From Pelagibius marinus (GTDB lineage: Bacteria > Pseudomonadota > Alphaproteobacteria > Kiloniellales > Kiloniellaceae): a stretch of DNA of 64,000 nucleotides. Below, piece by piece: positions 6,160-23,165 of the stretch. Location of the stretch: positions 496,001 through 560,000 of the forward strand of contig NZ_JACSDK010000001.1 in the NCBI RefSeq assembly GCF_014925385.1, given 5' to 3'. A program made the position numbers and the translations under genes. Under the pieces are notes generated by a model, which ran no database searches, had not been told where the DNA came from, and saw nothing but the letters and a program-made list of their open reading frames with translations. Within the stretch, counting starts at the first letter, position 1. The number at the start of each line of letters is the position of its first letter.

Positions 6160-6979
6160 CGCGGATCTCCTGCACGGCGCGCGGCCGGCCTTGGGTCTCG
6201 CCCGCCGCGTCGCGGGCCCATAGGTAGAAGGCATCGTAGAGTGCCATGGCGGCGTCGAGCTGCGCCAGGTCGTCCGCGTGGCGGCGTGACAGGCCCAGGC
6301 AGGCGGCGCGCAGTCCGGCGGACTCCGCCGCCAGCTCCGGCCGTCCGGTGTCGGCGCCGCGCACCACGGTGGCGAGGCGATCCAGCGCCGGGGTGGCGAG
6401 GCCGAGCTCCTCGACCAGGGTGTCGAAGGTGCAGCGCTCGCCGCGGTGGCCCCAGAAGGCGCCGTCGATGTCGAAGGCCGCGGCGCCGAAGCGCTCGGCC
6501 ACCGCCGCCACTTCCGAGGCCGCGACGTAGAGGAAGACAGCGCTGGGATCGACGAAGCGGCGGATCAGCCAGGGGCAGGCCAGGCGGTCGACCTTGGGTC
6601 TCGCGCGGGTGACCCAGAGGGTGCGGCCCTGCGCGTCGCGCGGCGGCAGGTGGTCCTGCGCCACCAGCGGCAGGCCGGCGGAGATCCAGCCCTGGAAGCC
6701 GCCTTCCAGCACCATCGCCCGGGCGCCGCTGTGCCGCAGCCAGGCGGCGGCGCCCTGGCTGATCTTCAGGCCGCGCTCGCAGTAGACGACGACCTCCTCG
6801 CCCGCAAATTCGGCGGCCCAGTCGGCGGCGGCGAGGCCGGGACGGTTGAGGGCCGCGGGAACCCGGCGGGGGTCGGCGGCGAGGTCTTCCTCGATGCGCG
6901 CATCGATGATGCGCGGCGCGCCGGCGCTGCCGAGGCGGTCGAAAAGCTCTTGAGGTGGTATCAGTGTCTGGTCAGGCAT
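6149..6979 (-). CDS. Rhodanese-ChrB fusion, chromate resistance protein
   Basis: 276 aa two-domain protein. Residues ~5-100 are a rhodanese domain (IIDARIEEDLA, active-site loop VYCERGLKISQGAA with the catalytic Cys near 65, and MVLEGGFQGW). Residues ~110-276 match the C-terminal domain of chromate resistance protein ChrB (LWVTRARPKVDRLACPWLIRRFVDP, FDIDGAFWGHRGERCTFDTL). ChrB proteins sense chromate or assist ChrA; rhodanese fusions of this type occur next to chrA. Start at ATG 6979 is supported by AAGGAAGGA upstream; the frame extends to 7024. It is the first gene of the chromate operon and overlaps chrA by 11 nt. Confidence 0.87.
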   Translation of the reverse strand: MPDQTLIPPQELFDRLGSAGAPRIIDARIEEDLAADPRRVPAALNRPGLAAADWAAEFAGEEVVVYCERGLKISQGAAAWLRHSGARAMVLEGGFQGWISAGLPLVAQDHLPPRDAQGRTLWVTRARPKVDRLACPWLIRRFVDPSAVFLYVAASEVAAVAERFGAAAFDIDGAFWGHRGERCTFDTLVEELGLATPALDRLATVVRGADTGRPELAAESAGLRAACLGLSRRHADDLAQLDAAMALYDAFYLWARDAAGETQGRPRAVQEIRDAQ

Positions 6980-7100
6980 GCGCGTTCCTTCCTTGAACAG
7001 GATGAGAACGCGATTCTTGGGCAAATGCCTGACGGGGAGATCGCGGACCCCCGAGGGCCGGGATTAAAACGCCAGTTGCGACTTAATGTCAAGTGAAGCT

Positions 7101-11034: not shown

Positions 11035-12231
11035 ATGCCGAAGTTCAAGACCCTTGACGACCTGGATGTTGCCGGCAAGACCGTGCTGGTCCGTGTCGAC
11101 TTCAACGTGCCCATGGCCGAGGGCAAGGTAAGCGACGCGACGCGCATCGAGCGCGCGGCGCCGACCATCAGGGACCTGACGGCCAAGGGGGCGAAGGTCT
11201 TGCTGCTCTCTCACTTCGGCCGGCCCAAGGGCAAGCCGAACCCGGAGATGTCGCTGAAGCCGCTGGTGACCGCCGTCTCCCAGGTGCTGGGCCAGGAGGT
11301 CGCCTTCGCCGAGGACTGCATCGGTGCCCCCGCCGAGGCGGTGGCCAAGGGGTTGAAGGACGGCGGCGTCGCCCTGCTGGAGAACCTGCGCTTCCACGGC
11401 GGCGAGGAGGCCAACGACCCGGACTTCGCCAAGGCGCTGGCGGCGCTGGGCGATGCCTACGTGAGCGACGCCTTCTCGGCGGCGCACCGCGCCCATGCCT
11501 CGACGGAAGGCGTGGCGCGCCTGCTGCCGGCGGCGGCGGGACGCCTCATGCAGGCGGAGCTGGAGCACCTGGCCGCGGCGCTGGAAAAGCCGAAGCGGCC
11601 GGTGGCGGCCATCGTCGGCGGCGCCAAGATCTCCACCAAGCTCGACTTGTTGGGCAACCTGGTGGCCAAGGTCGACATGCTGGTGATCGGCGGCGGCATG
11701 GCCAACACCTTCCTCAACGCCGTCGGCGTCGACGTCGGCAAGTCGCTCTGCGAGCACGACCTGGCGGAGACGGCGAAGGAGATCCTCGGCAAGGCCAAGG
11801 CCGCCGGCTGCGACGTGGTGCTGCCGACCGACGCGGTGGTGGCGAGCGAGTTCAAGGCCGGCGCGGCCAACGAGACGGTCTCGGTGAAGGCCGTACCGTC
11901 CGACAAGATGATCCTCGACTGCGGCCCGGCGACGGCCGAGCACCTGGCGCGGCGTCTCACCGACTGCGCGACCCTGGTGTGGAACGGCCCGCTCGGCGCC
12001 TTCGAGATCCCGCCCTTCGATGCGGCGACCAATTCCGTGGCCCAGGCGGCGGCGCAGCTGACCAGGGACGGCAAGCTGCTGACCGTGGCCGGCGGCGGCG
12101 ACACCGTGGCGGCGCTGGCCCATGCCGGGGTGATCGACGACTTCTCCTACGTCTCGACCGCGGGCGGCGCCTTCCTGGAATGGCTGGAAGGCAAGACCCT
12201 GCCCGGCGTGAAGGTGCTGGAGGACGCCTAG
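11035..12231 (+). CDS. pgk: Phosphoglycerate kinase
   Basis: 398 aa, normal length. Transfers phosphate between 1,3-bisphosphoglycerate and ADP in glycolysis, and the reverse in gluconeogenesis. Motifs: substrate-binding VRVDFNVPM (residues ~19-27), [15 protein letters not shown], the hinge [12 protein letters not shown], the nucleotide-binding NGPLGAFE, and the C-terminal GGGDTVAAL. Start is ATG 11035, preceded by GAGG; a longer open frame upstream is not family-like. No gap or fba gene is adjacent, as is often the case in related genomes. Its last 66 coding bases (12163-12228) recur at 14998-15063 after the downstream insert. Confidence 0.97.
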
Positions 12232-12679: not shown

Positions 12680-12862
12680 GTGATCCTCCCAAAAGCTTCC
12701 GCAGCAGGCTGTGCCGTAAGAAAGACAAGCTTGGGTCATGTCCGTCGCGATCCGCGTCACGCGGACGTCTCGAAGGCGTCGCCGCCGCCCCGCCGGCGAA
12801 TCTTTTGACGTGACGATGGTGGTTCCCGCCCACTAAGCTTGGCTCTACGTTGGGAGCCAGCC

Positions 12863-14965
12863 ATGGCCCACTTCCTGCAGCTTTTCGGCGAGTTTCAGCT
12901 GACACGCGAAAACGGAGAGCCGGTTGCGCTCTCCTGGCGAGGGCAGGCGTTGCTCGCCTATCTCTCGGTTGTGTCCCGCCCCGTCCCTCGACAGGTTCTG
13001 GCCGAGATGCTGAACCCGGGGGGTGACGAGCAGGAAGCGCGCAAGGCCCTTCGTCAGACCGTGTACCTCTGCCGCAAGGCGCTGGCCGACGGCGAAGCGA
13101 TCCGGGCCGACGAATGCGGCCTCACCTTGAGCAAAGACTGCCTGATGGCCGATGTGCGGCTGTTCGGGAACGCCATCGACCGCCGCGACAATGAGTCGCT
13201 GAATGCGGCGACCGAGCTGTATCGCGGGCCCTTCCTCGAGGGCTTCCGGCCGCCCACAGCGGCATTCGAAGACTGGCTTATTGCCCGTCGCGCCGAGTTC
13301 CTCGAGCAAGTGCTCGACGCCATGTTGAGCCTCGCAGCGTCACAGGCTGCGGCCGGACGACACAGCCTTGCCCTCGAACATGCGCGCCGGGCGCTGCACA
13401 TCGATTCTTTGCGGGAGGATGCTCACCGCGAGGTCATGCGGTGTCTCGGGGCCATGAATCAGCGCAGCAGCGCTCTGCGCCAATACGAGACGTTGCGAAG
13501 TCTTCTTGCCGCAGAGCTTGACGTGGTGCCGGAGCCCGAGACGGAAGCGTTGCGGGAGTTAATCGCGCGCGGCAAGGAAGCCGGCGCGCGCTCGGACGAC
13601 ATGGCTGCGCCAGAGCGCGGTACAGGCAATGGGGCGGCTGGCCGGACGGTATTCAGGCCGATCCGCACGCGCAATCGGGGATGGGCTGCGGCCGCTTTTG
13701 CGGCGGCGCTCTTGCTTGTGTCGTTCAGTACGGCCTTCTGGTTTCTCGACCGGCAGCGGCCTCCCGCCAGCGACTTGCCGTCGGTCGCCGTCTTGCGGTT
13801 CGACAACGTGAGCGACGACCCGGCGCAGGACTATCTCGAGCGCGGCGTGGTCGAAGAGATAACGGCGATGCTGGCGACTCACCCTGGCCTGCGCGTCGTG
13901 GCGCGTGCGAAAAGCCTCTCCTATGACAGTGCGATCAACGCCGGGCGTCTGGGCGAAGAGCTGGGGGCTCAGTATCTTCTTGAAGGTGCCGTGCAGAGGT
14001 TCGGCGAGGCGGTTCACATTACGGCGCAATTGATCGAGTCCGAAACTGGCCAGCACGTCTGGGCAAGGCGCTTCGAGGAACAGGGGGCCGACCTCGCTAC
14101 CTTGCAGCAGCAGATCGCAAGCAGAGTCTACGAGTCGCTTGTCGGGTTCACCGGTGCCATCGAGCGCCACGAGCAATGGCAGGCCTGGGCAAAGCCGCCG
14201 TCCAGCCTGCGGGAGAAGGACTATCTGCTGCGCGGCGAGCAGTTCTATTTCCAGTTCACTTACGAGGCACACACGCGCGCGCGGGAAATCTGGCGGGAAG
14301 GCCTGGCGAAGTTCCCGGATTCGGCGGGCCTGCGCCGCGCTCTCGCCGCCAGCTACCGCCACGCCGCCGAAGCCGGCTGGAGCGAGGACCCCGAGCAGGA
14401 TCTTGCGAAGGCCTGGCAGATGGGTCGGGAAGCTTCTCTCGCGCCGCAGACCTCCCGCTTCGACAATTGGCTCAATCATTGGATGATGGCCAAGCTCGCT
14501 CAGTGGTGTAAGGGGGACTACGAGCTTTCCCTCGCCGAAGCCAAGGCCGCTGTTGAGTTGGTGCCTTATGATGCGACTTCGCGGGCGGACCTCGCCGAAC
14601 TCCTGGCCAACTCCGGCAGGACCGGCGACGCGATCGAGTGGCTGCAGCAGGCAATGCGCCTCGATCCGAAAGGACCGGACTGGTACAAGGCCAACCTGGC
14701 CTGGGCCTACTATCTGGCCGGGCGGCATGAGGATGCCCAGGCGGAGCTTCGCAAGCTCAGCAAGCCAAGACACCTGCTGTCGGCCGCCGTGAGTGTCAGG
14801 CTCGGCAATCTTCCGGACGCGCGTGCATCCATCGTGGCTTTGCTGCAAACGCGAGCCGACTACACGATCACCGACGCGGCGCGACGGCCCCTGGTAGAGC
14901 CTCTCAAGCACTCCTGGCTCGAAGATCTCCGCGCGGCGGGGCTGCCAGATCAAGTGCCGCAATAG
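12863..14965 (+). CDS. Membrane-anchored BTAD/SARP-type transcriptional regulator with TPR output domain
   Basis: 700 aa. Residues 1-95 form an OmpR/SARP-like winged helix (LFGEFQLTRENGEPVALSWRGQALLAYL). Residues ~95-240 are the bacterial transcriptional activator (BTAD) TPR domain (EDAHREVMRCLGAMNQRSSA). One hydrophobic segment at ~275-295 (AAAAFAAALLLVSFSTAFWF) follows. Residues ~305-420 form a FlgO/TolB-like domain (VAVLRFDNVSDDPAQDYLERG, GAQYLLEGAVQR, GQHVWARRFE), then TPR-like repeats to the end. The topology suggests a ToxR/CadC-style one-component regulator with DNA binding in the cytoplasm and the C-terminal half in the periplasm. ATG 12863 has GGGAG upstream. Divergent from the exported CC..DC gene; both lie between two copies of the pgk 3' end. 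Confidence 0.85.
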   Translation: MAHFLQLFGEFQLTRENGEPVALSWRGQALLAYLSVVSRPVPRQVLAEMLNPGGDEQEARKALRQTVYLCRKALADGEAIRADECGLTLSKDCLMADVRLFGNAIDRRDNESLNAATELYRGPFLEGFRPPTAAFEDWLIARRAEFLEQVLDAMLSLAASQAAAGRHSLALEHARRALHIDSLREDAHREVMRCLGAMNQRSSALRQYETLRSLLAAELDVVPEPETEALRELIARGKEAGARSDDMAAPERGTGNGAAGRTVFRPIRTRNRGWAAAAFAAALLLVSFSTAFWFLDRQRPPASDLPSVAVLRFDNVSDDPAQDYLERGVVEEITAMLATHPGLRVVARAKSLSYDSAINAGRLGEELGAQYLLEGAVQRFGEAVHITAQLIESETGQHVWARRFEEQGADLATLQQQIASRVYESLVGFTGAIERHEQWQAWAKPPSSLREKDYLLRGEQFYFQFTYEAHTRAREIWREGLAKFPDSAGLRRALAASYRHAAEAGWSEDPEQDLAKAWQMGREASLAPQTSRFDNWLNHWMMAKLAQWCKGDYELSLAEAKAAVELVPYDATSRADLAELLANSGRTGDAIEWLQQAMRLDPKGPDWYKANLAWAYYLAGRHEDAQAELRKLSKPRHLLSAAVSVRLGNLPDARASIVALLQTRADYTITDAARRPLVEPLKHSWLEDLRAAGLPDQVPQ

Positions 14966-14997
14966 ACAACCGATGTCTGCAGGTCGCGGGCGCCGCC

Positions 14998-15069
14998 GGC
15001 GGCGCCTTCCTGGAATGGCTGGAAGGCAAGGCCCTGCCCGGCGTGAAGGCGCTGGAGGACGCGGCTTAG
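14998..15069 (+). pseudogene. Duplicated 3' end of pgk
   Basis: Reads [20 protein letters not shown] then DAA and stop. The first 66 bases match 12163-12228 of pgk at 63 of 66 positions; one alanine codon has been added before the stop. No other part of pgk is present here and no start codon precedes it. Together with the real pgk end it brackets the regulator / CC..DC insert. Strong identity plus a few coding-type differences suggests a fragment from a related pgk rather than a fresh copy. Confidence 0.85.
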
Positions 15070-15406: not shown

Positions 15407-18292
15407 TTGGGAAGCGGATCCGTGCGGACGACCTGGAAGTGCGCGATCGGTGCCCGCGCGGTTGCCGTCGTGCTGACGGTTTTTGTCGGTCTTTCCCTGC
15501 CGTCGACGAAAGCCCTTGCCGAGCCGCCCCCCGAATTGACGGTCCTCGCCGCGGATCTGCTGCGCGATCTCGACGATCACTTGGCGGCGGTTCCGGAAGA
15601 AGAAATTCCACAGGCCGTGCGTGAGGCCGCGCTGGCGATACTGCAGCGCGAAGACGCCTTCTCATGGCCCTTCACGCCGCTCGTTCCGAGAATATCGGGC
15701 GGCATGGAGGTTCTTGCGGCCGCCGGCCTCGCGGGCAGGGCAAGAGACATGGCTGCGGCGGAGAGCGCGCAGGTGCAGAAGGCCCTCGATGCCGCTGTCG
15801 TGGACAGAGACATGGCCGCGGCGGCAACGATCCTCTCCGGGATCGGCGGCGGCGCCGCACCCAACAGCGAGGCTCTCGGCGCCGTCCTTACGGTGGTGTT
15901 TCAAGGGATCATGGATCCCCGGACCTGGCCGCAGATCGAAACCCGCCACGAGTACGCCAGCCAATCCGGACCCCAAAGGATCCTTCTCGAATGGGACCGG
16001 GAGGCGCGCAGCTTCCGGCTGAGGATCAGCAACCTCCTGCCTGAAAAGGCGCCCGGCACCTGGTTTGAAGTCGAGGGGCCCGTCGGCGTGAAGCTGGCCG
16101 AAAATCCGGTTTGGTTCGAGGCGACCGTCCTTACACCGCGACGAACTTTCCGGCATGGCGTCGACGGCGAGGCCGGCGTCTCACAGGTCGCGGAGGCGGA
16201 AGCCCCCGCCGCCGCGCCTGGCGGTCTTGAGGACGAGATTGCGCGCCTCAAGGAAGAGATCATGTTCGCGTCCTGTGGTTTCGGAACGATCTGGAAGAAT
16301 ACGCAGACCGGGGAGCTGGTCTGCAAGACCGGCGGCCGTCCCCCGGATGGGCCCTTCGTATTCCACGACACATACGAGCCTGAAGCGGACGCAGAAGCGA
16401 AGAATGCAAGGCTGCGAGAGGAGCTTGCGGCGCTTGAGGACAGGCTCGCAGGGCAGGACCAGACCTCCCCGCCGGCCGACGGCCCGGACTGTGCAGCGCG
16501 GGCTTCCACCTTCGCCACGTCAGGTCCGGTCGTCTCTGCGGATCCACAGGGCATAATTCGGGTCCGCTGCGGCAACATCCTGAATTTCGGCAGCCACGTC
16601 GAAGTCGATGTAGCCATACCTGCCGACGCCTTCGTGACCAGCGATCCGAACTACAGCGGCAACGGCAGTTATCACAAACTCATGGTTCGTTCCGCGGCGC
16701 GCCTGCTGAGGGGTGACGGCGTGATGGCGCGCGGCGGCATCGACAGCTTCGATCTGGCCGATCCGACCGGCCGGGTCGATCTTGGTGTCCTGCCGCCCGG
16801 CTTCTACCGGCTCAGCGTGGTGGCGTGGAAGGAGGAACTGGCACAGGCCTGGCTGTTGGTGACCGTCGACCAGCGCCCCGGTGCCTTGCGCCTGGCCGGT
16901 GACCGGCCGCCTTCGGCCGGCCGGCCTTTCGACGTGATCTTCGACGCCCCGAAGATTGCGCGCGCAGCGACCCAAGCGGAGCTGCCAAGGTACGAGCTGG
17001 AAGTGATCCCGATCGGCCAGGATGGCAGAGGCCACAAGCAAAGCCGCGGGGTCGAACGGGAGTTCGATGCGGCGCCGGGGCAATCCATCCGCATCGACCC
17101 CTGGATGGTTCGCCCGGGCGCGAACCTGGTCCGGCTGCTGCTCAATTCCGGAGACGGCCGCTATGTGCTCGACACGCTGGCGCTCGAGCTGGGCGGTCAG
17201 GAGGATCTGCGCGCGCCCGTTCATTTCGCGCTGAACGGTGAGACCGATCCGGAGAATTCCGGCCTGACGGTCTTCGAGGGCAAGCGGCAGACGGTCGAGT
17301 TCGGGCTCGGCGGCCCCCTTGCCCTTGTCGGCGGCAAGGCGACATTCCGGGTCTACCGCCTCGAAGCGCCGCTGCTCAGCGGGTCGGGGGGGCGCCAGCG
17401 CGTCTTCGTCCTGCCCGCCGGCGCCCATCCGGGAGAGATCGTCGATGAGCGGCCGCCGCAAGCGCTGAAAGACCTGCAGGTCTGGGACGTCGCGACACCG
17501 CTGCCGCCGGGGCACTACGCCGCCGGGGTCGAGCTCAGTGCGTCGACGCAGATGTTCATGCTCCATTTCGACGTCCGGCCTGCCGAGGGCCGCGCCCGGC
17601 TGGTGCTCGACGGAGGCAATAGATTCGCCGTCGGCCAGGATGTCGTTGCCCGGATCGCCCATGCGGACGCGCAGGGCGACCTCGCCCTTCGCCTCTATCG
17701 GCTCGGCGGCTATGTGCCGGGCTGTGCCATCGAGAGGGAGCGGCTCGTGACCCCCAACGACACGCCGATCGAGCAGCTGCGCAATGAGAGCGGTGGTCTG
17801 TCGGGATACCGGATCGGGTCGCTGGACCCCGGCCTCTACCTGCTGCGAATGGTCCACAGCACCAGGACGGGCGAAGCCATCGTCGACGAAGACGGCTTCG
17901 AAGTCGTCTCCGGCCAGGCTGGAACGCCGGAAGACCGGGCGGAAGCCCGGCGCAATCCCTGGCCGCCCTTCGGCGGTTCCCTGGACGGGGTCGACTGCGC
18001 CGCTGTCGCCATCGAGGAGGAAGAGATCAAGCTGCGCCTTGTCCGCCTGGAAAGCGGCGAGTTCCAGGCGGTGGAGGGGCCCGCGGAGTACGGCAAGCCC
18101 TACTACCTCGAGGGGCGGCTTGAGAACGAGGCGCGGCAGAGGAGTTATCTGGCCGAGGTCGGCGCACCGGATGGCACGCCGGAAGACGTTCGACTCTACA
18201 AAGTCGAAGGTCAGCCTAATGTCCTGCGCAGTGAGATCATCTACTTCCTGTGGGACGCGTCAGCGGAGGAGGCGCCCGATGCGGATCGCTGA
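15407..18292 (+). CDS. Large exported protein of unknown function (961 aa)
   Basis: I do not recognise this protein. TTG 15407 is chosen because GGGGGAGG lies six bases upstream and the resulting N-terminus is a clean signal peptide (about 32 residues, hydrophobic AVAVVLTVFVGL, ending near KALA-EPP). Residues ~30-175 are helical; ~265-285 and ~340-360 look like short coiled coils (LEDEIARLKEEI; LREELAALEDRL). The remainder is beta-rich, with a recurring domain-end motif L-x-PG-x-Y near residues 460, 698 and 804 (LPPGFYRL, LPPGHYAA, LDPGLYLL), suggesting tandem beta-sandwich modules. Periplasmic or surface location is inferred. It overlaps the next gene by 14 nt, implying coupled expression. 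Confidence 0.8.
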   Translation: MGSGSVRTTWKCAIGARAVAVVLTVFVGLSLPSTKALAEPPPELTVLAADLLRDLDDHLAAVPEEEIPQAVREAALAILQREDAFSWPFTPLVPRISGGMEVLAAAGLAGRARDMAAAESAQVQKALDAAVVDRDMAAAATILSGIGGGAAPNSEALGAVLTVVFQGIMDPRTWPQIETRHEYASQSGPQRILLEWDREARSFRLRISNLLPEKAPGTWFEVEGPVGVKLAENPVWFEATVLTPRRTFRHGVDGEAGVSQVAEAEAPAAAPGGLEDEIARLKEEIMFASCGFGTIWKNTQTGELVCKTGGRPPDGPFVFHDTYEPEADAEAKNARLREELAALEDRLAGQDQTSPPADGPDCAARASTFATSGPVVSADPQGIIRVRCGNILNFGSHVEVDVAIPADAFVTSDPNYSGNGSYHKLMVRSAARLLRGDGVMARGGIDSFDLADPTGRVDLGVLPPGFYRLSVVAWKEELAQAWLLVTVDQRPGALRLAGDRPPSAGRPFDVIFDAPKIARAATQAELPRYELEVIPIGQDGRGHKQSRGVEREFDAAPGQSIRIDPWMVRPGANLVRLLLNSGDGRYVLDTLALELGGQEDLRAPVHFALNGETDPENSGLTVFEGKRQTVEFGLGGPLALVGGKATFRVYRLEAPLLSGSGGRQRVFVLPAGAHPGEIVDERPPQALKDLQVWDVATPLPPGHYAAGVELSASTQMFMLHFDVRPAEGRARLVLDGGNRFAVGQDVVARIAHADAQGDLALRLYRLGGYVPGCAIERERLVTPNDTPIEQLRNESGGLSGYRIGSLDPGLYLLRMVHSTRTGEAIVDEDGFEVVSGQAGTPEDRAEARRNPWPPFGGSLDGVDCAAVAIEEEEIKLRLVRLESGEFQAVEGPAEYGKPYYLEGRLENEARQRSYLAEVGAPDGTPEDVRLYKVEGQPNVLRSEIIYFLWDASAEEAPDADR

Positions 18293-21200
18293 CATCGTGC
18301 TGCTGGGGGCGCTCGGATGGCTGCTCGCGACCTCCTCTGTCGCCGCGCAGGAAGCAGACGCGGCGCAGTGGAACGGCCGCTGGCAGACCCAGTATGTCGA
18401 CGACCTGCTCGGTCCCGTTCACGGCCGTGCGCGGATTGACGTCGAGGCGCAGGCCGCCGAGGTCATCTACAGGCACCCGAAAACGGGCGCCGAGCACCGG
18501 CTGGTTTCGACCCTCTTCGAACGGCAGGGCAGCGATCTGAAAATCGTGCTTTCCGGGCAGAGCCCCGCCTTCGCCGCCGCCGACGGCCGCAACTACCCGG
18601 TGACCGACATCGTCGTCCCCGAAACCTCGGCCACCGCCACCGCTGCGATCGGCAACAGCAGCCTGACTGTCCCGCTCGCCCCGCGCCGGCCTTCGGATGA
18701 GGCCGAGGTCACGCTGGAGCTGACACTGGCCGACCTCCAGACGCTGCGCGGCAGCTGGCATTACCGGGCCGATCCGCTGACCCGCAGGGCGCACGACGGC
18801 CTCGGCCGTATCGGCATCTTCGAGACGCTGTCGGATGGCGGCGGCCGGCAGTCGGGCGGTGAGATCTGGACCCGACCGGTGCCGCAGATCGTCACCGCTT
18901 TCGCGCTCGATCCGCAGACCGGGTGGAACCGGGATCTGGTGGAACCCTTAAATCCGCACCCCTTCCAGGATGACCGCCACCGGCGGGAACAGGATCGCCG
19001 CTTTGTCGTGATTGCCGGTTACGAACTGCCGGCGGTTGGAAGCGATCCCGTCGACTTTGTCTCGCTCGAACCCTCCATCGCCTATGGCCGGGTGATCGAC
19101 CCGGACAGCACCTTCAAGTCGGTTCCCGGTCACCTTGAGCCTTTCGTTGACGCGCGGGCGAAAACGGCCGAACGCCTCGAAGCCGACCTGGGCCGCGAAG
19201 ACGCGAAGAAGCTGGCGGCTTCGCTCGACTATCTGATCGTCGAAGCAACGCTGCGCGACGGCATCACGCCGGGCATGCAGCGCTTCGCGTTGAACGGAAC
19301 GGCTTCGGGCTGGACGCTCGCCTTCGGCAACAACGGCGCGCAGATCCGCTTCGTCCGGCCGATCGATCCTGCGGCGGTTCCCGACCGGCGGCTCGACAGT
19401 TTCGACGTGGTCATCAAAAATCCCGATCAGACGGTCTCTCGCGCGCGCATTCGGGTCGAGGCCAGCGCCTTGACCGCTGAAGACGGTGTGGCCGCCGCTA
19501 CGGCGCTCACCGTTCGCCCGGGCGAAAGCCTGGAGGGGGATCTGTCGAGTGCCGAGTTTTTTGTCCTGACGCCGGACACCAGGGAGCGATTTGCGCGCCT
19601 GGGCCTGAGCTTCCTGCGCGGCGGTGAGGTGAACTCAACGGGCCGGCCGCAAGTCGTGACGGCCGGTAGTTTCCGTGGCGCATACGGCACCTTGACGATC
19701 GACGTGGAAGGGAACTTCACCTACACAGCCGATCCTCTGCGCTGGCTCAGTACCGGCTACGAGCCGACAGAGAGGCTCTTCGCGCCGGAGGTCGTACGTG
19801 TCGCGCTGCGCAGTGATCTGGTCCTCCCCCGCGAGAAGATCGACATAACGCTCGGCCACGGCGCCGAGATCCTGCAGTTCGCCGGCAGGCGCACGCTCCC
19901 GGTTATGCGCGATGCCAAAGATCCGCACCTCTATCTCAGCGCCCCGATCTACCTGCCGCCGGCCGGCACCGGCAGCGGCGCAGCGCCGCCGCCGGGCACG
20001 ACGGTGCTGCCGGCCGCAATCGGGGAAGGTGACAGGCTCTTCGCCGCCATTGCCGATCCGGGGCTGATCTCTGTCCCGCCGGCGCCGGCCGCGGCGCGGG
20101 TTTACACGACGCCGGGGCGGATGGAGAACGGACAGAGCTATCTCTGGAAGGACCACTTGAAGGCGGCGCATGCCTGCTACGACGACCTCGGCGAGATCGA
20201 CTGGGACGGGTCGGATTTCGATTTTGTCGCTACCCTGGAAGAGGACCTCCATTTTGAATGGTGGAAGGTCCTCTCGCTCGTCACCACGCTGTTCGCCTCC
20301 GAGACCCTGGAAACGAATTTCCAACTGGGTGATCACGCCGCGCTTCTGATGCTGCGGCACGTCTTTGTGACCCAGGCCGAGGCGAGGATAAAAGAATACC
20401 GCCGCCTGGCAGAGGCCGACCGCTACGAGGTCGCCGCCTTCTGGATCGCGACGAACCCCTACCGATGGGGCTCGGCGGGTGGCGGCCACCCGCTGAACAG
20501 CCTGCGGCTCGGCATCGAGGTTCCGATGCAGGATGGATCGTCGGGGCCCTTTGGATTCACTTATTTCGACAACTCCTCTTCCGGAGGGCTTCTCAGGATC
20601 GACGATCCGAAGAAGGTGCCGATCTGGATCGTGGCGGCGACGCGCAGCGCGCTCGGGTCCTATGCCGAAACGATCCGCGAGAGCCTCGCAACCGCCGACG
20701 AAACGGACGCTTGCGACGTCAGGGAACTGGTCGAGCTGGTCGGCGCGCATTTCGACAATGTCGAAGCGCAGCTGCGCCCCCGTCTGATGCGGTTGTCGGG
20801 GGATGCGCCGCTGCGCTGGGAGCCGGACTATCACGGCAGGCTCCGGATCCGGCAGGTCGCGAGTAAGCTCTGGCAGATGCGCGCGCATCAGCGTCTGTCG
20901 GAGGAAGATACCCAGCAGGCGCTGCAGTATATCTCCATCGCCACCCTGCCGGCCGGGGCTGCGGGGGCGACGGCCACGGTGATTCTTGCCGGATTCAACG
21001 CGGCCGCCTATGCCGCCACCGAGGTGCCGAAATACCTGGAGAGCCAGGAAGAGATCGCCTTTGCGCGCGGCGCCGCCGATGTGCTCGGCCTCACGCGGCT
21101 CGAGACCGCCGTAGCCAGGGAGTACAGCGGAACCGACCTGGCGATCGGGTTTCTTGTCACCCTGGGCGGCGATGTCGCGAGCGGCGACATGCTCGTCTTT

Positions 21201-23165
21201 CTCAAGTCGAGCGCCAAGCGCGTCGCCGATGCCGGGCAAGCCGTGCTCAAGGCGCGGCTGGCGTCGCCCCGCGCAGCCGTGGCGAATGCGTTCCGCAGGC
21301 TGCGCGCCGGCCCTCGCTACCGCGCGGTTCGGCGCGGCGCGGCCATCGTGAATGCCGCCGACTTCGACCTGGACAGCTTCCTTCTGCATGGCCATCCGCG
21401 GGACGCGGCCGACGTGGCGGAGTTTCTGTCCTATGCCCTGCGGCGCGAATCCTCCGGCGCGGCGCTGGAGCCCGTGCAGCTAGCGGCGCTCGAGCGGTTC
21501 AGGGCCGCGCGGGACCAGGCCGCCGGTTTGGCGGACACGGCGTTCACCGGCGAACTTCGGGCGCTTGCGGATGTCGAGGCTGTACGGCCCGACCTGCGCC
21601 GGCTGGTCCGGGAAGCGCGTGGAGTGGTCGAAACGGCGCTGGCCGCGGGCGGGCGGCGCCGCGCCGAGGCGCTCGCCTTGCTGCGCTTTTCGCCGCAGAG
21701 TACGGGGGAGGCCTTCCAGGCCGCGCTCGAGGCTCGCCTGGCGCGCGTCCGCCAGCCGCTCGGCGAAGCGTTCTATGACATGGCCGATCCGGGCAACCGG
21801 GCGGTCGCCGGACTGCTGGAGGACAACGGCTGGGCTGTCGCCGTCACGCCGCGCGAAAGCGGCGGGCATCATGTGAAGATCGCCGCGCCGGGGGGCTACG
21901 AGGATGCGCTTCTGCGCGGCTTCGATCCCGAGACGGGCGTGCTCGATTTCGTCAGCGGTTACCGGGACAACATTCCCGGCCATATCGATATCGGCCTGCC
22001 GGTGCCGCTTTCCGAGAAAGGCGTGCCGGCATTCCTCTTCGCGCAGCTGCGGTTCATGCAGGAGATGGGAATCGGCTATGCCGGCCAGGGCGGCAATCTG
22101 CTGCGCCGGCTCGACATGGGATGGGTCCTGAACGCGCGGACCAACGCGCAGCTCACCTGGTTCCGCAACACCTACCATCCCGGCAGAAGTTTCGCCGATC
22201 TGCAGGCCGAGGGACTCCTTGACGATTTCATCCTGCAGACCCGCTCCGTCGAATACGCGAGCAGCCTGATCGAACAATCGGGCTATCGGGTCAAGGCGGC
22301 CCGCTTTGCCTTTTTCGGCGAGCCCGGCCGGCTCTGGCCTCTGGGAAAGAGGTTCCGGGTCGGCGCGGAGGGGGAGACTTGGGAAGCCTTCATGCGCCGC
22401 TATGGACTCGGCCAAACCGACCCCGGTCCGCCCGGCATCCGCATCGAAATCGACGTCGAGCCCAATCCTGCGGCAGTCGGCGGCCGTGAAACGTCTCTTG
22501 AGACCGCCCGGCTGAACCTCGAGATGCCGCCGGAGGCCACGCAGCGGCTCGACCTGGAAGTGCCCGGCCCGGACCAGGTGGAATCGCCCGCCGCCGTCCG
22601 CCCGCCGGGCGAAAAGGGGGCAGCGCCGATCCCCGACGACTTTTCGGATACGCTGCCGCCGCCCGCGGCGGGCGAGTTCGACACGACCATCATCGAGCGA
22701 GCACCGCTTGCCCCGAATGATGAAATCGAGCGGATGCGCGCGATGGCGATGCACGACCTCGGCAATCAGGTGCCGGGCGCCGCCGAGCGGCTGGCCTTGA
22801 TCCAGGACGCGGAGGCGGCCTTGGGCCGGGGCAGCGCCGCGGAGCGGCAGTTTGGGCTGAGTGCTGCCCGGATGATGAGCGAGCTCGGTGTGCCCGAAGT
22901 GCGCGCGCTGCAGTACGCGGGGTTGCACCACCGGGCTGTCGATACGTCGGAACTTGCCGCCGGCGTCTTTCGGGGTCAGTTGGTCGCCGAAGCGATCCTC
23001 TACTCGGGGACGCGGCCGGTCCGGCTTGAGCGGTTCATGGCGGCCACCGGGTTGACGCAGAGCGCGGCCCAGCTGGCGGTCGAAGAAGCGGCAAGCCGGA
23101 TGGGCCTGGCGGTCCTGCCCGGGGAAATCCGCCCGGCAAGCCTCTATCCGCCGGCACTCAGGTAG
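18279..23165 (+). CDS. Very large exported protein of unknown function (1628 aa)
   Basis: Unrecognised. ATG 18279 has GGAGGAGG upstream and gives a signal peptide (VLLGALGWLLATSSVAAQ). Residues 25-~600 are beta-rich; ~465-485 (TLTIDVEGNFTYTADP) resembles the strand pattern of cadherin/VCBS-like repeats. Residues ~620-880 look globular and helical; ~883-915 and ~950-975 are Gly/Ala-rich hydrophobic stretches (LPAGAAGATATVILAGFNAA; IGFLVTLGGDVASG). ~1000-1400 is a long helical-to-mixed region, ~1425-1475 is Pro-rich, and 1480-1628 a terminal helical domain. The order exported beta region, hydrophobic linker, variable C-terminus recalls polymorphic exoproteins, but no toxin motif or adjacent immunity gene was seen. 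Overlaps the preceding gene by 14 nt. Confidence 0.78.
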   Translation: MRIADIVLLGALGWLLATSSVAAQEADAAQWNGRWQTQYVDDLLGPVHGRARIDVEAQAAEVIYRHPKTGAEHRLVSTLFERQGSDLKIVLSGQSPAFAAADGRNYPVTDIVVPETSATATAAIGNSSLTVPLAPRRPSDEAEVTLELTLADLQTLRGSWHYRADPLTRRAHDGLGRIGIFETLSDGGGRQSGGEIWTRPVPQIVTAFALDPQTGWNRDLVEPLNPHPFQDDRHRREQDRRFVVIAGYELPAVGSDPVDFVSLEPSIAYGRVIDPDSTFKSVPGHLEPFVDARAKTAERLEADLGREDAKKLAASLDYLIVEATLRDGITPGMQRFALNGTASGWTLAFGNNGAQIRFVRPIDPAAVPDRRLDSFDVVIKNPDQTVSRARIRVEASALTAEDGVAAATALTVRPGESLEGDLSSAEFFVLTPDTRERFARLGLSFLRGGEVNSTGRPQVVTAGSFRGAYGTLTIDVEGNFTYTADPLRWLSTGYEPTERLFAPEVVRVALRSDLVLPREKIDITLGHGAEILQFAGRRTLPVMRDAKDPHLYLSAPIYLPPAGTGSGAAPPPGTTVLPAAIGEGDRLFAAIADPGLISVPPAPAAARVYTTPGRMENGQSYLWKDHLKAAHACYDDLGEIDWDGSDFDFVATLEEDLHFEWWKVLSLVTTLFASETLETNFQLGDHAALLMLRHVFVTQAEARIKEYRRLAEADRYEVAAFWIATNPYRWGSAGGGHPLNSLRLGIEVPMQDGSSGPFGFTYFDNSSSGGLLRIDDPKKVPIWIVAATRSALGSYAETIRESLATADETDACDVRELVELVGAHFDNVEAQLRPRLMRLSGDAPLRWEPDYHGRLRIRQVASKLWQMRAHQRLSEEDTQQALQYISIATLPAGAAGATATVILAGFNAAAYAATEVPKYLESQEEIAFARGAADVLGLTRLETAVAREYSGTDLAIGFLVTLGGDVASGDMLVFLKSSAKRVADAGQAVLKARLASPRAAVANAFRRLRAGPRYRAVRRGAAIVNAADFDLDSFLLHGHPRDAADVAEFLSYALRRESSGAALEPVQLAALERFRAARDQAAGLADTAFTGELRALADVEAVRPDLRRLVREARGVVETALAAGGRRRAEALALLRFSPQSTGEAFQAALEARLARVRQPLGEAFYDMADPGNRAVAGLLEDNGWAVAVTPRESGGHHVKIAAPGGYEDALLRGFDPETGVLDFVSGYRDNIPGHIDIGLPVPLSEKGVPAFLFAQLRFMQEMGIGYAGQGGNLLRRLDMGWVLNARTNAQLTWFRNTYHPGRSFADLQAEGLLDDFILQTRSVEYASSLIEQSGYRVKAARFAFFGEPGRLWPLGKRFRVGAEGETWEAFMRRYGLGQTDPGPPGIRIEIDVEPNPAAVGGRETSLETARLNLEMPPEATQRLDLEVPGPDQVESPAAVRPPGEKGAAPIPDDFSDTLPPPAAGEFDTTIIERAPLAPNDEIERMRAMAMHDLGNQVPGAAERLALIQDAEAALGRGSAAERQFGLSAARMMSELGVPEVRALQYAGLHHRAVDTSELAAGVFRGQLVAEAILYSGTRPVRLERFMAATGLTQSAAQLAVEEAASRMGLAVLPGEIRPASLYPPALR

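Follow-up and report, generated by a model that had tools for sequence, protein, structure and literature searches.

Two questions are raised by a pair of overlapping genes for giant exported proteins in the 5.4 Mb genome of Pelagibius marinus: do the two proteins form one system, and if so, of what kind? The pair lies in a stretch of 64,000 nucleotides (contig NZ_JACSDK010000001.1, positions 496,001 to 560,000 of the forward strand), hereafter the window, whose own numbering is used throughout. A sequence-only reading had described two overlapping frames of 961 and 1628 amino acids sharing 14 nt, here called A and B, and this arrangement is present as described, with the overlap at 18279-18292. 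Both frames are taken to be real genes because homologues occur in other genomes. Gene A starts at a TTG codon with GGGGGAGGCG just upstream, and gene B at an ATG with GGAGGAGG just upstream; both genes carry a ribosome-binding-like sequence, which for B falls within the 3' end of A. Since A can also be read in a longer open frame, from 15356, its start codon is a choice.

The features of both proteins are collected in the table below. Each has one N-terminal hydrophobic stretch (residues 13-31 of A, KD mean 2.11; residues 3-21 of B, KD mean 1.81), and judged from hydrophobicity and by eye, these agree with the signal peptides previously proposed for both. The three L-x-PG-x-Y repeats ascribed to A were recovered with the pattern L-x(1,2)-P-G-x-Y, which occurs a mean of 0.03 times in composition shuffles and reached three copies in none of 5000. 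The Gly/Ala hydrophobic stretches of B could likewise be located, at about residues 885-910 and 956-974, and the matching place is also hydrophobic in the four relatives scanned (G180, L010, G397 and G283, introduced below).

Table. Features of the A-B locus in the window (positions numbered from the first letter of the window)
Feature	Residues	Positions	Strand	Basis or remark
BTAD/TPR regulator-like gene		12839..14965	+	Upstream of A; absent at this site in sister loci
Gene A, variable partner	961 aa, exported	15407..18292	+	Open frame; no family match
Signal-peptide-like start of A	1-39	15407..15523	+	Hydrophobic stretch; cleavage site by eye
Helical/coiled-coil segment of A	269-353	16211..16465	+	Modestly similar to a 527-aa exported protein of G368
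L-x-PG-x-Y motif 1 of A	462	16790..16807	+	Pattern search
L-x-PG-x-Y motif 2 of A	699	17501..17518	+	Pattern search
L-x-PG-x-Y motif 3 of A	806	17822..17839	+	Pattern search
Conserved C-terminal domain of A, proposed to dock on B	870-957	18014..18277	+	Homologues
Gene B, constant partner	1628 aa, exported	18279..23165	+	Open frame
Signal-peptide-like start of B	1-24	18279..18350	+	Hydrophobic stretch; cleavage site by eye
Family core of B	32-1395	18372..22463	+	Homology to G180, G283 and Opitutaceae MAG; to G397 via G180 B
Insert of B, largely private to the window	about 366-493	19374..19757	+	Alignment gap in four relatives
Invariant Cys of B	633	20175..20177	+	Invariant alignment column
Invariant Cys of B, possible disulfide partner	812	20712..20714	+	Invariant alignment column
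Gly/Ala-rich hydrophobic region of B	885-974	20931..21200	+	Hydropathy scan
C-terminal domain of B	1161-1395	21759..22463	+	Alignment; shared by the four B proteins whose end is intact
Tail of B	1396-1628	22464..23162	+	Only in the window's B among those aligned; no Pfam match

The statement that neither protein belongs to a known family held up: there was no match at curated cut-offs in Pfam, NCBIfam or PHROGs, and no significant match among sequences of solved structures in the PDB (best E 0.15). Pfam returned no family for the window's A or B up to E 0.1, none for the A and B of G180, none for the tail of the window's B, and only a sub-threshold BA14K match for the C-terminal domain of G180 B. 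PHROGs returned nothing for A or B. In NCBIfam, the window's B came close to TIGR01965 (15.2 bits, cut-off 15.5, E 0.018) and reached 20.2 bits (E 2.8e-4) with NF045619, whose cut-off is 180; the relatives and separate domains of A and B gave scattered matches, all below threshold. AlphaFold2 models had pLDDT values of 42.5 and 48.0, too low to use, and fold searches with the latter produced no trustworthy match. The Ig-like folds that A may contain, and its putative docking domain, are read from motifs alone. No description of the pair was found in literature listings. The family formed by A and B is nameless in the libraries consulted.

B is present in one of the eight genomes of the window's genus, the window's own, and absent from the other seven; across the order, this genome is the only true carrier among 61. 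Homologues of B were found in five other genomes: three species of one genus (G180, G283 and G441), one member of another family (G397) and one Opitutaceae chromosome of another phylum (a MAG, locus L010), whose copy was retrieved with a B profile and has a broken A-type gene upstream. Because the genome searches overlap, they are reported one by one and not summed. True carriers of B numbered 1 of 116, 1 of 61 and 4 of 376 genomes, and in further searches 3 of 116 relatives of G180, 1 of 398 and 2 of 191; searches with A gave 1 of 116 and 4 of 385, the latter including a partial match in G368. No relatives of the pair were found in plasmids, phages, viral contigs or the first genome-contig scan.

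The window's B aligns with those of G180 and G283 over its core in two pieces, at 27% identity over 980 aa (against G283; E 1e-65 when 11 proteins were compared) and 28% over 351 aa. The B of G397, detected with a profile of the C-terminal domain (E 9.3e-7) before its locus was known, aligns with G180 B over 925 aa at 26% identity (E 7e-60), and the C-terminal domain is 25-31% identical to the window's in B proteins with an intact end. The B of G180 and that of the Opitutaceae chromosome are 56% identical over 1253 aa. The Opitutaceae B is thus nearer to G180 B than the window's B is, though the window shares its class with G180, and this speaks for horizontal transfer.

Among the B proteins, the window's carries two additions, the insert and the 233-aa tail. 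Scattered residues of G397 align inside the gap that the insert leaves, and the insert contains a weak VCBS-like motif at 455-486. The family alignment is shallow because the collections searched hold few members; it shows polar positions that do not vary, both in the central part of B and towards its C-terminus. Cys633 and Cys812 are invariant in the five aligned proteins, and they are spaced 179 residues apart in the window's B vs 161-162 in four relatives. Their invariance would suit a disulfide in an exported protein. The B of G397 is lipoprotein-like, with a lipobox, LAAC, recognized by eye. Together with the signal-like starts, the lipobox and the two cysteines support export.

Whether the genes belong together was checked by asking, as set beforehand, if B occurs without its partner. 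No such case was found: in six of six loci (the window's own, G180, G283, G441, the Opitutaceae MAG and G397) B is directly preceded by an A-type gene, with A broken into pieces in the MAG and its match weak in G397. With neither a characterised family nor a B lacking its partner found, the suggestion of a two-protein envelope or extracellular system is supported. The B family is described by core homology, the two invariant cysteines and the A-type gene directly upstream, all of which were found, the cysteines in the five B proteins other than the G441 fragment. The frames overlap by 14 nt in the window and by 4 nt in each of G180, G283 and G397. The contig of G441 ends within B, leaving A and the first part of that gene, and G397 (L038) encodes an 853-aa exported protein followed by a 1317-aa B.

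The third gene, which was also to be checked, differs by lineage. In G180 and G283 (L007 and L008) the order is a VWA-domain gene (V, its domain assigned by Pfam), the A-type gene, B (1348 aa) and D, which is small; in G397, V is convergent with the pair. V is present in three of six loci (G180, G283 and G397) and D in three of the five with sequence downstream of B (G180, G283 and L010), both at tblastn E 1e-5, and no V-type VWA homologue was found in the window's genome. D has no Pfam family, and its copies at L007 2493-2978 and L010 13829-14404 are 35% identical over 142 aa (E 2e-14). Lying directly after B in two phyla, it is a candidate immunity or accessory gene.

The two partners are conserved to different extents. 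B can be aligned along its length in all lineages, and what A shares between lineages lies mainly in its last ~85 residues. When 385 genomes of the class were searched with A, two genomes of one distant genus were reached through its last ~88 residues (E 9.1e-13 in G180 and 1.9e-10 in G283; 40% identical), and the same domain is seen in L010 and G441. The A of G397 matches the C-terminal profile weakly (hhalign probability 3%, E 0.013), at its very C-terminal end as expected, and 2 of 2000 shuffles score above the true protein. A domain shared between the tail of A and B was considered and rejected, as the A C-terminal profile ranks B proteins no better than 252nd among A-type proteins and shuffles.

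A comparison of the sister species G180 and G283, the one pair on which the divergence pattern rests, gives protein identities of 68% for A, 96% for B, 93% for V and 80% for D. Synonymous divergence (dS) is 1.79 for A, compared with 0.52 for B, 0.49 and 0.46 for an SDR and an AMP ligase gene, and 0.49 and 0.56 for the downstream genes. Within V it is 0.26 over codons 1-120 but 1.24-1.30 over the second half. Followed in 50-codon steps, the raised divergence sets in at about codon 150 of V and extends over A until its last 16 codons, where the proportion of synonymous differences drops from 0.61 to 0.08. The same end of the protein is the best conserved: within the last 66 amino acids, identity is 98% for residues 601-650 and 94% for the final 16, against 43-84% in the other 50-codon windows. 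Because V, whose second half is similarly divergent at synonymous sites, is still 93% identical in protein, A must be changing faster than the genes beside it, beyond what follows from lying in an exchanged block. Low-divergence patches also occur outside A, with values of 0.08-0.12 over the final ~100 codons of B and 0.14 over the initial 50 of V, and exchange is therefore not confined to A. Positive, diversifying selection on A was considered and is unsupported: dN/dS is 0.13 for A (0.04 for B), and it lies below 1 in every one of the 11 of 16 windows in which it could be computed, the other five being saturated. The divergence of A is weaker constraint plus exchange.

In the window the pair is inserted beside pgk. 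In the sister genome G004, pgk is directly followed by a block of RidA, LysE and JmjC genes, from which it is separated in the window by A, B, the BTAD/TPR gene and one further small gene. None of these four has a match in the six sister loci fetched (from six of seven sisters), five of which, all except G002, carry the JmjC block after pgk. The pgk 3' end at 12158-12227 recurs at 14993-15062 as a 70-nt copy with 96% identity, and the two copies flank the segment with the BTAD/TPR regulator and the small gene, separating it from A-B. The distal copy ends like the native gene of G004. It looks as if an element had been inserted at the end of pgk; no integrase was evident at the site.

Since the genes stay together, both proteins have export-like starts, B is conserved throughout and A mainly at its end, we hold tentatively, and short of conviction, that A and B may be two parts of one exported complex, envelope-bound or extracellular, in which A can be swapped on a constant B. 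B would serve as the scaffold, tethered to the envelope through a lipid anchor (as in G397) or its hydrophobic segment. A would be an exchangeable recognition module built from Ig-like beta units, with its C-terminal domain docking on B, and the assembled complex would meet surfaces or other cells. The more ambitious form of this proposal is doubtful: an envelope system, not described before and spread horizontally, in which one giant, constant B displays cassette-swapped A proteins through a conserved C-terminal docking domain. If it is true, bacteria alter the specificity of a surface machine by swapping one gene and keeping the other. A conserved two-gene unit in two phyla that is nameless in the family libraries searched is of interest in itself, and a constant giant with a fast-changing partner and a fixed tail yields a testable docking model and a handle on surface diversification.

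The readable parts of the locus (Ig/VCBS-like motifs, lipobox, VWA neighbour) belong to a general kind of large surface proteins. Among these, adhesins of the BapA/LapF type with VCBS or Ig-like modules are similar in being large and exported and in the VCBS-like motif of the window's B. However, this B does not reach the curated cut-offs for BapA/Bap/LapF adhesins and VCBS repeat proteins (NF045619 and TIGR01965, above), and A-B differs in being two proteins, in having no long repeat arrays and in beginning with a signal-peptide-like stretch. Adhesins of the BapA/LapF type are typically type I secreted. Two-partner secretion (TpsA/TpsB) likewise involves adjacent genes for two large exported proteins, but neither A nor B contains a TpsB barrel with POTRA or a TpsA domain (0 Pfam families to E 0.1). 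Alpha-2-macroglobulin-like MG domains fall short of the Pfam cut-off: the only Pfam match of G397 A is PF01835 (MG2; E 0.18, 12.6 bits vs a cut-off of 32.8), and the window's A has none. Finally, secreted VWA proteins beside giant exported proteins occur in G138, G368 and G397, and a VWA gene adjoins A-B in G180, G283 and G397, from which the window's genome differs in that no such homologue was found there.

Polymorphic toxin systems offer another comparison: A-B shares with them a giant exported protein, a hydrophobic segment before the C-terminal domain, a patchy spread and, in some of its lineages, a small downstream gene. On such a reading, which we consider unlikely, B would be secreted as an effector, its hydrophobic segment crossing the membrane of the target and its C-terminal domain of ~235 aa acting as the toxic enzyme, with A as a binder and D, where present, as the immunity gene. 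The order of the Gly/Ala segment and conserved C-terminal domain in B fits this, as do D right after B in G180, G283 and the Opitutaceae MAG, the distribution reaching another phylum, and the G368 VWA gene that adjoins a different giant exported protein. An adjacent immunity gene is named as a key feature of polymorphic toxin systems (PMC3482391). In the window, however, B is followed by 129 nt and then an opposite-strand LysE gene, with only frames of 29-36 aa between, and in G397 by the convergent VWA gene with no D found, so that D accompanies B only in G180, G283 and L010. Polymorphic toxins also join a variable C-terminal toxin domain to a constant N-terminal part; B keeps one C-terminal domain in each of the four proteins whose end is intact, and the window's B alone adds a tail. 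No toxin family matched at curated cut-offs in Pfam or NCBIfam, and the B of G397 is lipoprotein-like. Because B has no immunity candidate behind it in the window and in G397, keeps its C-terminal domain and carries a VCBS-like motif, adhesion or recognition is slightly preferred over toxicity.

B could instead be an enzyme, and A its substrate-binding partner, in a periplasmic or outer-membrane complex that processes, for example, a polymer or envelope substrate. The strong purifying selection on B and its invariant polar residues would agree with this, but no catalytic motif was recognized in B, and the pair is absent from the seven other genomes of the genus and most relatives searched, which argues against a house-keeping role; we regard an enzyme complex as quite improbable. 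An envelope sensor or stress-response pair regulated by the adjoining BTAD/TPR gene is very unlikely: that gene does lie just upstream, within the stretch that sisters lack, but the pgk 3' duplication separates its segment from A-B and no such regulator was apparent beside A-B in L007, L008 or L038 (frames inspected by eye).

The helical segment of A modestly resembles the 527-aa exported protein of G368 at E 3.1e-4 against one genome and E 7.7e-6 against 11 proteins; the similarity was not recovered by tblastn at E 1e-3. The window's A may be a mosaic with a G368-type part.

Several candidates were set aside. A match of G004 to B (E 5e-4) proved on inspection by eye to be antisense to the translation initiation factor 2 gene, and a match of G144 to the B C-terminal profile (E 0.0075) falls within a 249-aa protein not resembling B. 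G368 was rejected as a carrier of B, since its 1185-aa protein shows no similarity to B, and the papain-like C-terminus suspected in that protein is backed by no family.

The VWA gene was detected in 23 of 212 genomes, with a match over nearly the whole profile in G180, G138 and one place in G075. In G368 (L009, 5874-12521), the VWA gene, which shares 69% identity with its G180 counterpart, lies next to the 1185-aa exported protein, with the 527-aa protein nearby; compared with the G180 locus, the VWA gene thus has different giant neighbours within one genus. In G138 (L071, 9022-15561), a near full-length relative of the gene stands beside giant exported-looking proteins, one of 1122 aa with a VWA domain of its own and one of 557 aa without a Pfam match. 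Neither the G138 nor the G368 locus matched A or B at tblastn E 1e-3. Just upstream of A-B in G397 lies a CsgG-family gene (L038, 1236-2273; PF03783, E 5e-28, with FlgT_C). Elsewhere in the window, a chrB-a cis-regulatory RNA was detected on the minus strand at 6977-7057 (RF03078, 60.5 bits).
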